Source of the DNA: Asanoa ishikariensis
GTDB lineage: Bacteria > Actinomycetota > Actinomycetes > Mycobacteriales > Micromonosporaceae
NCBI RefSeq assembly: GCF_900107455.1
Contig: NZ_FNQB01000001.1
Span: forward strand, 2,046,001-2,110,000
Direction of reading: 5' to 3'
DNA length: 64,000 nt
Within the stretch, counting starts at the first letter, position 1. Every line of letters starts with the position of its first letter. Made by a program: the position numbers and the translations under genes. The notes under the pieces are model-generated. The model had not been told where the DNA came from, ran no database searches, and saw only the letters and a program-made list of their open reading frames with translations. Below, one piece after another: positions 9,651-58,090 of this stretch.

Positions 9651-10112
9651 GTGAAGGTCGAAAGCCGGCGGGGCGACGAGCCGGACCTGGTCGCGCTGGT
9701 CACCGCCCAACAGGCGGAGCTACGTGCCGCGGAGCGGGCCAGCGCCGCGATCGACGGGTCGTTTCCTCTGCACGACGACATCCGGTATCTCGTGGTCGTC
9801 GTCGACGACGAGGTCGTCGCCTGCGGCGCTCTCCAGGCCATCGACCTGCGAGCCGTCGAGATCAAGCGCATGTTCGTGCGTCCTGAGCGCCGAGGCGACG
9901 GCTTCGGCCGGACGATGCTCGCCGTGCTCGAGGAGCGCGCGGCGGCTGACGGCTTTACCGTCGCGCGGCTGGAGACCGGCAGTTATCTGCCGGCGGCGCT
10001 CGGTCTCTACCGCAAGGCCGGCTACCGCGAGATCCCGACCTACGGCGAGTACGTCACCAACCCGTACAGCCGCTGCTTCGAGAAAGCCCTCAAGGCCTCA
10101 GCTCCGGCCTGA
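9651..10112 (+). CDS. GNAT-family N-acetyltransferase
   Basis: A 153-residue protein with the GNAT core: a beta strand/acetyl-CoA loop around VEIKRMFVRPERRGDGFGRTMLAVLEERA (residues ~73-100, with R-R-G-D-G-F-G in the place of the usual Q/RxxGxG/A loop) and the C-terminal GLYRKAGYREIPTYGEY. It resembles small actinobacterial acetyltransferases acting on small molecules. The start is GTG 9651, 35 bases after obg, so it may be read through from obg. Substrate unknown. Confidence 0.85.
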   Translation: MKVESRRGDEPDLVALVTAQQAELRAAERASAAIDGSFPLHDDIRYLVVVVDDEVVACGALQAIDLRAVEIKRMFVRPERRGDGFGRTMLAVLEERAAADGFTVARLETGSYLPAALGLYRKAGYREIPTYGEYVTNPYSRCFEKALKASAPA

Positions 10113-10151
10113 CCCAGCCAAGCCCGGCCCCGGCCCGCGGCAAGGCTCACG

Positions 10152-11804
10152 TCAGGCTTGAGCCGGCTCCTCTGCTCGCAGCGGGTCGGTCGGTGGTGCG
10201 GTCGGGGTCCGACCGGTGCGCACGAACAGGCAGCTGACCGCCGCGACAGCCAGCACGATCAGCGGCAACAGCAGGGTCGCCTTCATCGCGTTCGTGAAGC
10301 CCTCGTGGAACGTGCGGGTGGCGATGTCGGTCAACGCCTGCCGGTATTGCTCGGGCACATCCGCCGGTAGCGCCGCTCCCGACTGCCCGGCGCCGATGTG
10401 CAGGCTGCCGCCGGTCGCTCCCGCGACCGCGTCGACGAACGGCTGCCGGACGTCGGGTGGCAGGTCGGCGGCGTTGGTCCGCGCCGCCGCGGTCAGCTTG
10501 TCGGTCAGTTGGGCCTGTAGCAGCGCGCCCACTGCGGCCGAGCCGATCACCGCGCCGAGTTGCCGGGCGGTGTTGATCAGGCCGGACGCGGCACCGGCCT
10601 GTTGTGGTGGCACGTGGCGCATCGCGATCGTCTGGAGTGGAGCGAAGACCATGCCGAGGCCGGCTCCCGCGATCAGCAGGCCGGGTAGCAGCCCCCACTG
10701 CCCGGTGCCGACCTCTGCCAGCGCGACGACCGTCGCGTTGCCGGCGCACCAGAGGCTCAGCCCGGCTACGAGCACCCACTTCCCGGCCGCGCGGTCGGAG
10801 AGCCGGCCCGCGAAGGGTGCGATCACCATCGACAGCAGCGACAGCGGCGCGACCGCGATGCCGGCCTGGAGCGCGGTCAGCCCGAGGACCGACTGTAGGT
10901 AGATCACCAGGGGTAGGAACAGGCCCAGCATGCTGAACGCGATCGCCGCGCTCACCCAGCTCATCACGGCGAAGTTGCGGTCCTTGAAGATGGTGAAGGG
11001 GATCAGCGGCTCGCCGGCCCGGCTCAGGTATTGGTGGTAGAGGAACACGGCCAGCACCACCACGCCGGCGCCGATCACCTCGACGATCGTGATCGGACCC
11101 CAGACGCGGCCCCAGTCGTGTGGCTCGCCCTCGATCAGGCCGTAGACCAGGAGGAACAGGCCCACGCTGGCCAGGGCGGTGCCGGTCCAGTCGAGCCGAT
11201 GACGGCGGTTGAGTCGCAGGTCGGGCATCGCGACCACAGCGAGTACGACGGTCACGATGCCGACCGGCACGTTGACGAAGAAGATCCACTCCCACCCGAA
11301 GTCGGTGACCAGGTAGCCGCCCAGAGTAGGGCCGGCGACCGTGGCGATGCCGGCCACCGAACCCCACACTCCGAACGCGACGCCGCGCTTGTCGGCCGGG
11401 AAGATCACCGTGATCGTGGACAGCGTCTGCGGTGTGAGCAGGGCGCCACCCACGCCCTGGATCACGCGGAAGACGATCAGCTGCTCGGGTGTGCTGGCCA
11501 GACCGCACGCGGCCGACGCGGCCGTGAAGACCACCAACCCGAGGATGAACAGCCGCTTGGGTCCGAAGATGTCACCCAGCCGCCCGGCGGTGATCAGGAG
11601 GACCGCGTAGACCAGCACGTACGCGTTGATGATCCAGAGGATCTGGTCCAGTGACGCGTCGAGGCTCGTGCTCATGTCCGGGATGGCTATGTTGACCACA
11701 GTGGTATCGAGCAAGATCATGAAGAAGCCCAGGCAGAGTATTGCCAGGATCAGCCAGGGTTTGGCGGGGCGTTCCTGCTGCGGCGTGCCGGTCGGTGCGG
11801 TCAT
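10152..11804 (-). CDS. MFS drug exporter, DHA2 (EmrB/QacA) type
   Basis: A 550-residue integral membrane protein, consistent with the 14 helices of the DHA2 family. Helix 1 carries ILLDTTVVNIAIPDM (the D1-type motif LDxTVVNVALP) and the loop after helix 2 carries GRLGDIFGPKRLFILGL (motif A). PADKRGVAFGVWGSV and GPTLGGYLVTDFGWEWIFFVNVPVG (motif C region) follow. A soluble segment before the last helix (LTDIATRTFHEGFTNAMKATLL) is typical. The start is ATG 11804 with GAGGGGG upstream; the codon directly before is GTG. Probably a proton-driven exporter of hydrophobic compounds. No regulator gene is adjacent. Confidence 0.92.
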   Translation of the reverse strand: MTAPTGTPQQERPAKPWLILAILCLGFFMILLDTTVVNIAIPDMSTSLDASLDQILWIINAYVLVYAVLLITAGRLGDIFGPKRLFILGLVVFTAASAACGLASTPEQLIVFRVIQGVGGALLTPQTLSTITVIFPADKRGVAFGVWGSVAGIATVAGPTLGGYLVTDFGWEWIFFVNVPVGIVTVVLAVVAMPDLRLNRRHRLDWTGTALASVGLFLLVYGLIEGEPHDWGRVWGPITIVEVIGAGVVVLAVFLYHQYLSRAGEPLIPFTIFKDRNFAVMSWVSAAIAFSMLGLFLPLVIYLQSVLGLTALQAGIAVAPLSLLSMVIAPFAGRLSDRAAGKWVLVAGLSLWCAGNATVVALAEVGTGQWGLLPGLLIAGAGLGMVFAPLQTIAMRHVPPQQAGAASGLINTARQLGAVIGSAAVGALLQAQLTDKLTAAARTNAADLPPDVRQPFVDAVAGATGGSLHIGAGQSGAALPADVPEQYRQALTDIATRTFHEGFTNAMKATLLLPLIVLAVAAVSCLFVRTGRTPTAPPTDPLRAEEPAQA

Positions 11805-11867
11805 CACATGACCCCCTCGGACGTGGATGTGCGTCCATAGGTCTAACACGTGCGTACGACACGTTGG

Positions 11868-12860
11868 TCACGTCAGTACTCCGATCGCGCGCTTCGCACG
11901 GAAGACCGTCTCAGCGGTCCGGGTCCGCGCCCGATCGGCCCCCTCGGCGAGCACCTGGCGGACGTACCCGGGGTCGCGGGCCAACGTCGCGAAGCGTGAC
12001 CGCAGCGGCCGCAGCAGACCCAGCACCGCCTCGGTGGTGGCGCTCTTGAGCTCGCCGTACCCGTGCAGTCCCGATCCGACCTCCGCCGGCGATCCGCCGA
12101 CGCACGCCGCCATGATCTCCAGCAGGTTGCTGACACCGGGTCGCACCGCCGGGTCGTACGCGATGATCCCGTCCGAGTCCGTGACCGCTCGGCTTATCTT
12201 GCGGGCGACCAGGTCAGGCGGGTCGAGTAGGCCGATCGCGCCGGACGCCGACGACGTCGTCTTGCCCATCTTGGCCGTCGGGTTGGCGAGGTCCATCACC
12301 CGTGCCGCGACCGTCGGCGTGACCACCTCGGGCACGACGAAGGTCGGCCCGTACCGCCGGTTGAAGCGGTTCGCGATGTCGCGGGTGAGCTCGACGTGCT
12401 GCCGCTGGTCGTCGCCGACGGGCACCTCGGTCGCGTCGTGCAACAGGATGTCGGACGCCTGCATCACCGGGTACGTCAGCAGGCTCAGCCGGACGTTCTG
12501 CCGGTCGACCGCCTTCTCCCGGAACTGGATCATCCGATGCGCCTCGCCGTACGCCGTCGTGCATTCCAGCAGGTAGTGCAGTTCGGAGTGGTCGGGCACC
12601 TGGGACTGCACGTAGAACAGCGTGCGGTCGGGGTCGAGACCTGCCGCGAGCAGGACGGTCGCCTGGCGCAGGGTGGTCTCCCGCAGCGTGCGCGGCTCGT
12701 GCGCGACGGTCAGTGCGTGCAGGTCGGCGAGGAAGACGGTCGAGTCGGTCGTGTACTGGTCGCGGATCATCGGCGCGATGGCGCCGAGCAGGTTGCCCAG
12801 ATGCAGCTCACCGGTGGGTTGGAGGCCGGTGAGGCGACGGGTCGCGACGGTGGTGGTCAT
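11868..12860 (-). CDS. trpS: Tryptophan--tRNA ligase
   Basis: A 330-residue class Ic synthetase that charges tRNA-Trp. The start is ATG 12860 (MTTTVATRRLTGLQPTGELHLGN) with GGAGG five bases upstream. The HIGH-like motif is ELHLGN at residues ~18-23. The KMSKS-like motif is AKMGKTTSS at ~190-200. Tryptophan-pocket segments such as MIQFREKA and YPVMQASDILLHDATEVPVGDDQRQHVELTRDIA are present. Upstream lies a leader peptide with tandem Trp codons and alternative hairpins, so transcription is probably controlled by attenuation in response to charged tRNA-Trp. Confidence 0.97.
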   Translation of the reverse strand: MTTTVATRRLTGLQPTGELHLGNLLGAIAPMIRDQYTTDSTVFLADLHALTVAHEPRTLRETTLRQATVLLAAGLDPDRTLFYVQSQVPDHSELHYLLECTTAYGEAHRMIQFREKAVDRQNVRLSLLTYPVMQASDILLHDATEVPVGDDQRQHVELTRDIANRFNRRYGPTFVVPEVVTPTVAARVMDLANPTAKMGKTTSSASGAIGLLDPPDLVARKISRAVTDSDGIIAYDPAVRPGVSNLLEIMAACVGGSPAEVGSGLHGYGELKSATTEAVLGLLRPLRSRFATLARDPGYVRQVLAEGADRARTRTAETVFRAKRAIGVLT

Positions 12861-12905
12861 GGCTGCCTCCATGGTTCGAGAGGAGCCGCGCGAGCCGGGT
12901 GAAGG

Positions 12906-12941
12906 CATAAAGAAACGGCCACCCGAACTCGGGCGGCCGTT
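12906..12941 (-). terminator. Attenuator terminator in the trpS leader
   Basis: On the minus strand a 13-bp stem (12941-12929 with 12926-12914; one G-U pair, 3-nt loop) is followed directly by TCTTTATG. The stem with its T-rich tail is a canonical intrinsic terminator, placed about 55 bases before the trpS start codon and therefore upstream of the coding region it would control. Confidence 0.85.
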
Positions 12942-13012
12942 GACGTGGGCACGCGGATGCGGGGCCGCCCTTAGGGCGACCACCAGCCGAGGAAACTCAG
13001 CGTCCGCATCCC
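12929..13012 (-). promoter_or_regulatory. Tryptophan attenuator leader of trpS (alternative hairpins)
   Basis: Four pairing segments can be read in order on the minus strand. Segment 1: GGATGCGG (13011-13004) over the leader start. Segment 2a: CCGCATCC (12962-12955), which pairs with segment 1. Segment 2b: GGGCGGCC (12970-12963), which pairs with GGCCGCCC (12938-12931), the 5' arm of the terminator. Segment 4 is the terminator's 3' arm. A ribosome stalled on the Trp codons would cover segment 1 and free segment 2 to break the terminator. This is the classic 1:2, 2:3, 3:4 attenuator arrangement. Confidence 0.8.
12971..13009 (-). CDS. Leader peptide with tandem Trp codons (trpS attenuator)
   Basis: ATG at 13009 opens a 12-codon frame, MRTLSFLGWWSP, ended by TAA at 12971-12973. 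Two adjacent TGG codons lie at 12980-12985. An in-frame TAG lies just upstream, so this ATG is the natural start; only a weak purine run (CAAGGG) precedes it. The frame sits 110 bases before trpS and overlaps the pairing segments of the attenuator. Two Trp in 12 residues is far above chance for such a short frame in this position. Confidence 0.82.
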   Translation of the reverse strand: MRTLSFLGWWSP

Positions 13013-13026
13013 TTGAGACTAGCAGC

Positions 13027-13048
13027 CGGTACGCGGCCGACGGTACCG
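13027..13048. promoter_or_regulatory. Inverted repeat between trpS leader and the HTH gene
   Basis: CGGTAC (13027-13032) and GTACCG (13043-13048) with a 10-base spacer lie between the divergent trpS leader and the HTH gene. It could be an operator; the evidence is only the symmetry and position. The rest of 13049-13155 shows nothing else I can name. Confidence 0.3.
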
Positions 13049-13155
13049 CCGAGGCGCGGTCGCTGGCCCCCTCCGCTGGCTCCTCCCCGGGAGCCGGATG
13101 GCGGCCAGAGTCGACCACGAGCGGGTGCACGGGGCATCCGGCGGGGGAGGCGGCG

Positions 13156-56011: not shown

Positions 56012-58090
56012 TCAGCCCGCCTCTGGGGCGGGCAGGCCCCGGGCGGCATCGACCGACACGTGACGTGCCGGTCCTGGCCCTGCCACCAGCAGGCTGAGCG
56101 CCCACGCTGCCGGCACGACGAGCAGCACCGCACCCGGCAGGAACGTGATGCCGTCGGCGGGATAGCTGGTGCCCCCCAACGCGAACAGAATTGACGCCGC
56201 GAACTGGGACAGCACGATCGAAACGAAGAAGACAACGACCGAGACGGGCAGGCCCGCGACGAGGATGGCCGTCCGGACCGCCGCGTTGCGGCCCCTACGA
56301 CGCGACCGAGGGTTGAACAACACGGCCACGACCGCGGCCGCGAAAGGCCCCGCGAGCGCGATGGGCACAAGCTGTGTCACCGCGAGATCTATGCCGCTGC
56401 CGGTAGCCGCACCACCGAGGCCGAGGAGCACGGTGGGTACGCCAATGAGCACGGCAACCCACCACCGGGAGAGCCGTCGGTCGACCGCCGCGGCCGCCGC
56501 AAGCCCTGACAGGACAGCGAACAGTGCGGGAACCATCGCCGTGGCGACGACGAGGCCCGGCGGCAGGAACGGGTGGTTGACCGTTGGCGTGCCCTGAAAC
56601 AGCAGGAGCGGCCCACAGCACGCTCCCGTTATCGCGACGACAGCAAGCCGCCGCCGTGCCCGCACCACGTCGGCACGACCGCCCCCCATCCCGGGCTCGC
56701 TGCTGATCCACCACGCGACGGCAGCCGAGAGGGCCGCGACCACCAGAGCCACGCGAAGGTCAGGACTCGCGTCGCGCCCCAGAACCGAATCGCCACCGAT
56801 GAGGAGGAGTACGAGAACGAAGGCCGCGAGCGGTGAGGCGTGCCGGTCGGCCGCCGCCAGCAGCAAGCTGGCCGCGGCGAGCAGGATGGCGCCCCAGCGG
56901 AGCTCGGCAACCCAGACAAAGAGCTCTCCGTCACCGCCCGGCATCGGTGCGGTCTGGCTGACCTTCGTCATCGCCGGCGTGAGCACCGCGACCGAATAGG
57001 CCCACGCGATCAAAGCGAGCGACATGCTCGTCAGCGCGCAGGCGAACAGGCCCCTCGACAGCGACACAGGCCTGGCGGGGTCCGCTGATGTCGGCAGGAC
57101 GGGTTCGGTAGACGAAGCGTCGACGCGCGCACGACTCCCCGCGACCCCGTAGACGATGACGAGCACGGAGAGGAGGACGAACATCTCCGGATAAGGTCCG
57201 AGGATATTGGACACCACCCAGTTCTCTTCAGCCACGTACCGGTTCACCTCTGTGCCCGAGGTCTGCCCAGACAGGATGGCCGGCGCCCACTCGAAGGCCA
57301 TGCCTAGATCGCCTCCGATGTGGAGGATCGATGGCACGGCGGCGATCGCCGTCGCAAGCTCGACCGTCACGAGGACGCCGAACACGGCCAACACCCAGGC
57401 ACTTCGCCGGGCGACTCGGTGCCGGGACATCGTCATTCGCACGACCGCCAGCGTGCAGACCGCCGAGAGGATCGCCCAGCTCAACCCGCCCGTGACGGCC
57501 GATCCGACGCGCAGCGCGTACATCTCGCCGACCTGGGCGGCGAAAGCCGTCTGCTGCAGGGTGAATGCCGCCGTGAGCGACAAGGAGGCGGCCGACACCA
57601 GACCGACGACCCCGAAACGTGGCGCGCGTGCGGCCCGCCGGCCAAGCCACCATCCGGCGCCGACCATGACCAACGCGGTGAAGACGTCGGCGAAACCGAA
57701 ACCGCCACCGAAGCCGGACGGGTCCGTCACACCGACGACGCTCGCGATCCACCTGACAATCCCGTCGGCGTACGACGAGAGTGGACCGGACACGACCAAT
57801 GCGACGACGAACAGGAGCGCGTACGGCCCCACGGTTTTCCCGAGGCCGGGCAACAGTTCCCGCCAGCCACGTGGAACGCCGTGCTCGTCGAGTACCGGCG
57901 GCGAGATCGCGAGACTGACAGCGAAACGCAGCGGCCCGATCACCCGGGCAAGGCGCGTCTGGTGCGACTCACGCGCGATGGCGTCCAACTCCGCGGCCCA
58001 CTCGCGTGCGTGCTCGTCGCGCACCTCCGCCGGCCACCGACGGACGGCGACCCTCAGACACCATCGAGCGATCGCCAGCGCTGCGTTCAC
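56012..58090 (-). CDS. Large multi-pass membrane protein of unknown function
   Basis: A 692-residue protein. Residues ~1-60 are a soluble helical segment (RRWPAEVRDEHAREWAAELDAIARESHQTRLARVIGPLRFAVSLA), a pattern seen in PadR-associated actinobacterial membrane proteins. After that come about fourteen or more hydrophobic helices in several groups. No catalytic or transport motif is recognised. Its start overlaps the PadR gene stop (ATGA), so the pair is coupled and PadR probably controls it. Confidence 0.8.
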   Translation of the reverse strand: MNAALAIARWCLRVAVRRWPAEVRDEHAREWAAELDAIARESHQTRLARVIGPLRFAVSLAISPPVLDEHGVPRGWRELLPGLGKTVGPYALLFVVALVVSGPLSSYADGIVRWIASVVGVTDPSGFGGGFGFADVFTALVMVGAGWWLGRRAARAPRFGVVGLVSAASLSLTAAFTLQQTAFAAQVGEMYALRVGSAVTGGLSWAILSAVCTLAVVRMTMSRHRVARRSAWVLAVFGVLVTVELATAIAAVPSILHIGGDLGMAFEWAPAILSGQTSGTEVNRYVAEENWVVSNILGPYPEMFVLLSVLVIVYGVAGSRARVDASSTEPVLPTSADPARPVSLSRGLFACALTSMSLALIAWAYSVAVLTPAMTKVSQTAPMPGGDGELFVWVAELRWGAILLAAASLLLAAADRHASPLAAFVLVLLLIGGDSVLGRDASPDLRVALVVAALSAAVAWWISSEPGMGGGRADVVRARRRLAVVAITGACCGPLLLFQGTPTVNHPFLPPGLVVATAMVPALFAVLSGLAAAAAVDRRLSRWWVAVLIGVPTVLLGLGGAATGSGIDLAVTQLVPIALAGPFAAAVVAVLFNPRSRRRGRNAAVRTAILVAGLPVSVVVFFVSIVLSQFAASILFALGGTSYPADGITFLPGAVLLVVPAAWALSLLVAGPGPARHVSVDAARGLPAPEAG

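Follow-up and report, generated by a model that had tools for sequence, protein, structure and literature searches.

A probable ribosome-mediated attenuator in the leader of an auxiliary trpS gene of Asanoa ishikariensis

The trpS leader and its proposed switch

The auxiliary tryptophanyl-tRNA synthetase (TrpRS) gene trpS of Asanoa ishikariensis is very probably controlled by a ribosome-mediated transcription attenuator. The gene (11868-12860, minus strand, 330 aa; assigned by TIGR00233 at 286.7 bits and by its place in the trpS tree) and its leader lie in the stretch of 64,000 nucleotides that was analysed as a whole, called the window below. This reading is built on the sequence, the conservation of the leader, the covariation of two of its helices and its geometry, from which we infer the start site, termination, ribosome stalling and the response to Trp-tRNA. 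The switch probably turns the auxiliary trpS on when loaded tryptophan tRNA runs short.

All elements of the leader are on the minus strand. The leader peptide ORF, MRTLSFLGWWSP* (13009-12971), was read from the sequence and has counterparts in relatives; its 12 residues, two of them Trp, are spelled ATG CGG ACG CTG AGT TTC CTC GGC TGG TGG TCG CCC TAA, in keeping with the leader peptide with adjacent TGG codons given in a preliminary description of this DNA. The two TGG codons occupy 12980-12985, the first of them 16 nt before the GGCGG of arm 2. Fold and covariation define a start-of-leader helix, P0, whose 5′ strand (13003-13009) includes the start codon and whose 3′ strand (12951-12957) falls within the linker that separates arms 2 and 3. 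Arm 1 (12974-12981) belongs to the last part of the leader ORF and by the fold makes a protector hairpin with arm 2, with little covariation. Arm 2, GGGCGGCC (12963-12970), follows right after the stop codon and, by sequence and fold simulation, has either arm 1 or arm 3 as its partner. Arm 3, the 5′ arm of the terminator (12930-12941), contains the antiterminator segment GGCCGCCC (12931-12938), which pairs with arm 2. The terminator scan assigned the 3′ arm, arm 4, to 12914-12925 and the tail, TCTTTATG, to 12906-12913. Arm 2 is complementary to the arm 1 end and perfectly complementary to GGCCGCCC, itself also a segment of the terminator; by the window sequence and the folds the 1:2, 2:3 and 3:4 pairings are mutually exclusive, in the order that an attenuator needs and that had been claimed.

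A single terminator-like site was found, at 12941-12914, with 12 pairs (9 G-C) and a loop of 4, where shuffles average 0.1; the hairpin lies 53 nt upstream of trpS, and its stem is 12 bp rather than the 13 bp first reported. Folding of the 104-nt leader gives -59.3 kcal/mol (z -5.5), equalled by 0 of 200 shuffles, and the fold of the free leader is the start-codon helix enclosing the 1:2 hairpin, plus the terminator. The ribosome-binding site of trpS, GGAGG in the sequence at 12866-12870, is outside all leader hairpins, and translational control by masking this site is therefore rejected. The start-of-leader hairpin of the preliminary description fits two structures. One is P0, which is conserved and covaries; the other is a local hairpin of 6 bp within the ORF, which is unsupported as a conserved part, the longest stem there being 2-8 bp across 103 leaders.

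The leaders compared here number 107 and collapse to 103 distinct ones. In the window a predicted -10 box, TAGTCT (13016-13021, minus strand), with an extended TG at 13023-13024, is located 6 nt before the leader ATG. TANNNT ends 6-8 nt ahead of the leader codon in 81 of the 103 leaders, where the choice of start partly used the box; since that choice leaned on the box, the cleaner figure comes from leaders with one possible start, all 20 of which have the -10 box 6-8 nt ahead of it. The extended TGn occurs in 43 of the 81 box-bearing leaders. There is no recognisable -35 element in the window, and nTGACn is present in only 2 of the 81 box-bearing relatives. In S. lividans, according to PMC8079986, transcription starts on average 6.3 nt from the -10 box, whose consensus is TAnnnT. 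From this spacing of the -10 box we predict a leaderless message with a transcription start at ~13009, at the leader codon and not downstream of 12970, where by the preliminary description a start would have told against the attenuator.

In the proposed mechanism, RNA polymerase would start at or next to the leader ATG, and a ribosome would enter the leaderless message and translate MRTLSFLGWWSP. If Trp-tRNA is ample, the ribosome would reach the stop codon and cover arm 2, the 3:4 terminator would form and transcription would end before trpS. If Trp-tRNA is short, through tryptophan starvation or a blocked housekeeping TrpRS, the ribosome would stall at the first Trp codon, at a distance that would just leave arm 2 free; arm 2 would pair with arm 3 while arm 4 is still unmade, letting the polymerase proceed into trpS and perhaps into the efflux gene that follows. 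Should no ribosome begin translation, the start codon and the rest of the 5′ end would pair with the linker, enclosing the 1:2 hairpin, and the terminator would form. Precise predictions follow, namely a leaderless start, a decisive first Trp codon and a start-codon helix.

The distance from the first Trp codon to GGCGG is 16-18 nt in 97 of the 103 leaders and 14-19 nt in all. We simulated the ribosome with an assumed footprint, masking the RNA as far as 12 nt past the point where the A-site codon begins. In these fold simulations the antiterminator is made before arm 4 in 102/103 leaders when the ribosome stalls on the first Trp codon and in 101/103 when it stalls one codon later, as compared to 0/103 with the ribosome at the stop codon and 7/103 for free RNA. 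With arm 4 in place, the terminator dominates every state at equilibrium (median 0.97-0.98; antiterminator 0.00), so the choice must be kinetic, a feature of other attenuators too. The codon after the first Trp is Trp in 85, Arg in 16 and Gln in 1 of the 103 leaders, and a single Trp codon is sufficient in 18. The single-Trp leaders correspond to 9 label changes on the trpS tree, at least 5 of them forced by starred branches; loss of the first Trp with the second kept is seen in one leader only (L105). From this pattern, and with the geometry pointing the same way, we read the first Trp codon as the decisive one.

Conservation and covariation across relatives

The upstream regions of all 76 window-type trpS genes from 150 family genomes were scanned for three features together: a short ORF (5-20 codons) that has Trp close to its stop codon, a GGCGG beyond that stop, and a hairpin of at least 7 bp. 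This architecture is present in 74/76 family upstreams as compared to 2/1875 dinucleotide-shuffled upstreams, and upstreams of other (housekeeping) trpS genes pass in 0 of 14 cases. The scan was written after such leaders had been viewed, and the shuffles and the other-trpS upstreams are therefore the controls that count. The trp attenuator that had been placed before trpS is confirmed in its window features and has its like in these family upstreams. The preliminary description also proposed a check of relatives for conserved tandem TGG codons; peptides with Trp codons are present in the same 74 of 76, and 18 of the 103 leaders have a single Trp codon. Of the two misses, L099 has WW and a hairpin with the stop codon absent at its usual place, and the upstream of L138 is cut by a contig end. 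Among named loci (the best 80 of 484 relatives), 33 pass the scan. The leader is kept over many genera at trpS protein identities of 54-94%, and its frame, Trp codons, stop codon and spacing to arm 2 recur in peptides whose other residues vary.

To measure covariation, leader parts were compared with the parts of other leaders in 2000 permutations of the 103 distinct leaders. For P0 and for the terminator, a leader's own partners beat all 2000 permutations; those of the antiterminator were beaten or matched by 13/2000, and those of the 1:2 hairpin are not clearly better than others (118/2000 as good). Two control stretches gave no signal (1265/2000 and 1947/2000). We also aligned 47 leaders with MAFFT, 8 having been excluded for a doubtful start or segment assignment and others dropped as near-copies. 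In this alignment, 6 of the 8 pairs of P0 are changed on both sides (72.8% of cells paired), as is 1 of 8 in the 1:2 hairpin (72.3%). Double-change cells number 57 as compared to 29.4 in shuffles, a level reached in 0/500; two weaker covariation measures are less striking (28/500 and 41/500). The antiterminator is paired in 93.6% of cells, a percentage reached by 54/500 shuffles, and is without covariation (142/500 shuffles reach its covariation score), which is to be expected of an arm 3 that has two partners to match. By these sequence comparisons the start-of-leader helix and the terminator covary. Compensatory changes, for which a check of three stems had been proposed, are thus seen in two, P0 and the terminator, and the third, the antiterminator, is conserved without them. 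The outcome by which the preliminary description would have been refuted, related leaders lacking both Trp-codon peptides and stem covariation, is not what the family shows.

The base facing nucleotide 1 of the leader tracks the start codon: ATG occurs with T in 25 leaders and with C in 9, GTG with C in 16 and with T in 4 (Fisher 2e-4, kinship uncorrected). This association is drawn from 65 leaders in which nucleotides 2-6 are well paired; 11 others are unpaired. Because the facing base follows the start codon, P0 includes the start codon.

The terminator bears on the alternative that survives best, in which the leader peptide senses Trp, the downstream hairpin is not self-terminating, and Rho or a loss of translation coupling ends transcription. 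We regard this as unlikely. Weak U-tracts are common, with at most 3 T in the 8 nt of the tail in 60 of the 103 leaders, and trpL2 of S. lividans lacks a U-rich stretch in the available part of PMC8079986. Against it, the window tail has 5 T in 8, and across the 103 leaders the 8 nt past the hairpin are 42% T, as compared to 14.5% in the upstreams. The hairpin is the best conserved part of the leader (87.7% of cells paired and 5/12 pairs changed on both sides in the 47-leader alignment), and the trpS ribosome-binding site is outside it.

A T-box, a riboswitch or a protein-bound leader in place of a translated leader is far less probable still. A permissive Rfam search of 12800-13100 returned two sub-threshold matches only, RcsR1 at 12912-12997 on the minus strand (20.2 bits, cut-off 60) and DnaX (11 bits, cut-off 35), and the Rfam search of the whole window yielded no family at its cut-off and no T-box. 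The conserved frame, Trp codons, stop and arm 2 distance, set against varying residues elsewhere in the peptide, are those of a leader that is translated.

That a chance short ORF stands before a terminator with no regulatory meaning has almost no probability left. Taken alone, the pattern TGGTGG..GGCGG..GGCCGCC occurs in the genome about as often as chance allows, with 19 places as compared to 16 for the reversed control, but conservation across so many genera, together with the covariation, refutes such a coincidence by comparison among relatives. Not standing out above the reversed control, the bare pattern was rejected as a finder of leaders. A second match to it in the window (57587-57652, minus strand) is unrelated to the leader, such matches being at chance level genome-wide.

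The auxiliary trpS lineage and known systems

The genome of 9.1 Mb has two trpS genes, the window copy and one on another contig (TIGR00233, 352.8 bits), which are 46% identical. At least one trpS is present in each of the 150 family genomes sampled, and the window type is found in 73 of them (76 genes, all at least 54% identical, with the next group no higher than 48%). A further trpS match occurs in 72 of these 73 genomes, the exception being G063, a genome 77% complete. The window trpS is therefore the second, auxiliary TrpRS of its genome, a point missing from the preliminary description. Of 24 genomes picked from the 80 named loci, 20 belong to leader-bearing lineages and have at least two trpS genes, and the other four, which are Acidimicrobiia-like and include metagenome assemblies, have one each. 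By the window trpS, the closest named relative among the best 80 of 484 is Asanoa hainanensis, at 94% protein identity.

A tree of 170 trpS proteins, made by a quick search with SH-aLRT support only and with 52/164 inner forks left open, places all 107 leader-bearing rows in one 115-row branch (98*). The other eight rows of this branch are L099 and L138, described above; L052, L061, L067 and L076, which have WW leaders missed by the architecture scan; L033, with one TGG and a hairpin but without a near stop; and L017, which is masked. The scan found no leader in the 41 trpS relatives outside the branch. The simplest reading of these sequences is that the leader arose once, together with the auxiliary trpS branch. 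The switch described in Streptomyces belongs to a whole auxiliary-TrpRS lineage, present in about half of the sampled family genomes. The trpS of Nocardia alni (L005) and its leader fall inside a 10-row branch otherwise made up of Micromonosporaceae and Asanoa siamensis (99*), where gene and switch were likely transferred together.

The trp attenuator of Escherichia coli has four arms, Trp codons and a stop codon before arm 2. The window leader follows the same logic, but its ORF is predicted to be leaderless, its arm 1 side reaches the start codon and its target is an aminoacyl-tRNA synthetase. In S. coelicolor, TrpRS1 is inducible and its gene trpRS1 is regulated by attenuation; it is likewise a second trpS, and the window clade is that of the Streptomyces second copies. 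The same clade holds the Streptomyces leaders of trpL2 type (e.g. MTTRTCTQLWWAA). Where Droste 2021 (PMC8079986) treats trpL2-trpS of S. lividans TK24, it reports a message leaderless by RNA-seq, one Trp, hairpins and no U-tract. Common to that system and the window, as far as the accessible text goes, are a leader before trpS, Trp near the stop (MMTRTCTQLWRAA* there) and hairpins behind; the window differs in having two Trp codons in place of one, a T-richer tail and another genus and family.

The consulted part of Seliverstov 2005 (PMC1262725) predicts attenuators before actinobacterial trp operons and before trpS2 of S. avermitilis. These share repeated UGG codons and a GC-rich terminator with the window, and the triple gGCC-rGCy-GGCC given in that part of the paper fits GGCGGCC / GGCCGCC / GGTGGCC of the window; the same part concerns other taxa and mentions neither a start-codon helix nor a leaderless start. 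The earlier appeal to predicted actinobacterial trp attenuators is thus borne out, but the mechanism upstream of trpS had itself already been proposed for Streptomyces. By its sequence the window leader belongs to a kind already described in that genus, a comparison that is solid and from which we infer the regulation. No report of the leader in Micromonosporaceae was found in the open-licence literature searched. The additions made here are the single clade origin, the single-Trp variants, the covarying start-codon helix and the efflux gene behind trpS in a few genera.

Position 9, the efflux neighbour and other Trp-type leaders

Lys9 is said to cause indolmycin resistance, reportedly from work by Kitabatake in 2002. 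Position 9, in the tryptophan pocket, is occupied by Lys in 77 of the 107 leader-bearing rows; the remainder have Thr (17), Gln (11), Ala (1) or Val (1), and all 14 of 14 housekeeping rows have Gln. The window trpS has Gln at this position, unlike three congeners with Lys and unlike the indolmycin-resistant TrpRS1 type, of which Lys9 is reportedly the mark. As Lys9 is missing from some leader-bearing trpS genes, that of the window included, the leader is retained where Lys9 is absent. Second TrpRS copies of Streptomyces are indolmycin-resistant; for TrpRS1 of S. coelicolor the resistance is named in PMC9437257. Three congeners (L113/L086, L118/L156 and L115/L158) each have two auxiliary-type trpS genes, both leader-bearing, with Thr at position 9 in one and Lys in the other.

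A gene for a DHA2-type drug-efflux transporter (10152-11804, minus strand; TIGR00711, 314.1 bits) follows trpS on the same strand after a gap of 63 nt, and no terminator-like site was found in 9900-12000. The efflux gene possibly shares the trpS transcript and is co-regulated by the attenuator. A same-strand efflux homologue is present behind trpS in 11 of the 76 family genes: all six from the genus, three from two other genera (gaps of 28-103 nt) and two at ~660 nt. None was found behind the other family trpS genes, with less than 200 nt of downstream sequence covered for at least L103 and L108, and a transporter search of 44 short downstream pieces found none.

A spare synthetase induced by the shortage of its own substrate is a straightforward way to tolerate TrpRS inhibitors. 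We suggest, as a speculative extension that we hold at rather low confidence, that in some Micromonosporaceae the attenuator drives a single transcript for a spare TrpRS and an efflux pump, an inducible answer to natural TrpRS inhibitors kept even without Lys9, and that the start-codon helix makes the switch sense whether translation starts. The variation at residue 9 and the efflux neighbour make a purpose in inhibitor tolerance testable.

To look for other leaders of this type, we used a covariance model built from the 47 leaders, that of the window included. In its own genome the model finds the trpS leader at 80.5 bits, by construction, and one other site at 42.6 bits (E 4.5e-4); all remaining matches have E of at least 1. 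The second match (L174:1501-1601; G000:C3:1839595-1839695) has the leader VHARLSMWWPADPAAHFRA*, whose stop codon is past arm 2, unlike the trpS leaders. It is followed by a gene for a chorismate-binding protein (PF00425), anthranilate-synthase-like and under every NCBIfam cut-off. The same gene is also found behind the match in two congeners (95% and 89%) and in six phylum-sample loci (~58%), where the leaders are of WWW type. A WWW form is likewise given for trpL1 before trpE of S. lividans in the part of PMC8079986 consulted. Each of six genomes of the genus has 1-2 trpS matches and one match of 42-43 bits, the downstream gene of the latter having been checked in 3 of the 6.

The order sample has model matches in 15 genomes. 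The phylum-sample matches L189-L193 were rejected, as they have no Trp leader and resemble ordinary terminators. At L185:1501-1618, a WWW leader-like ORF with a hairpin precedes a small protein and is divergent from an ORF that by eye resembles selenide water dikinase; this leader-like ORF may be due to chance. In two other actinobacterial genomes (L187:1501-1606 and L188:1501-1604), a WW leader with a hairpin, e.g. MLLITPAAQGWWPH*, is found before a small ORF with PPNLDYY/F and downstream of an ORF resembling an anion transporter.
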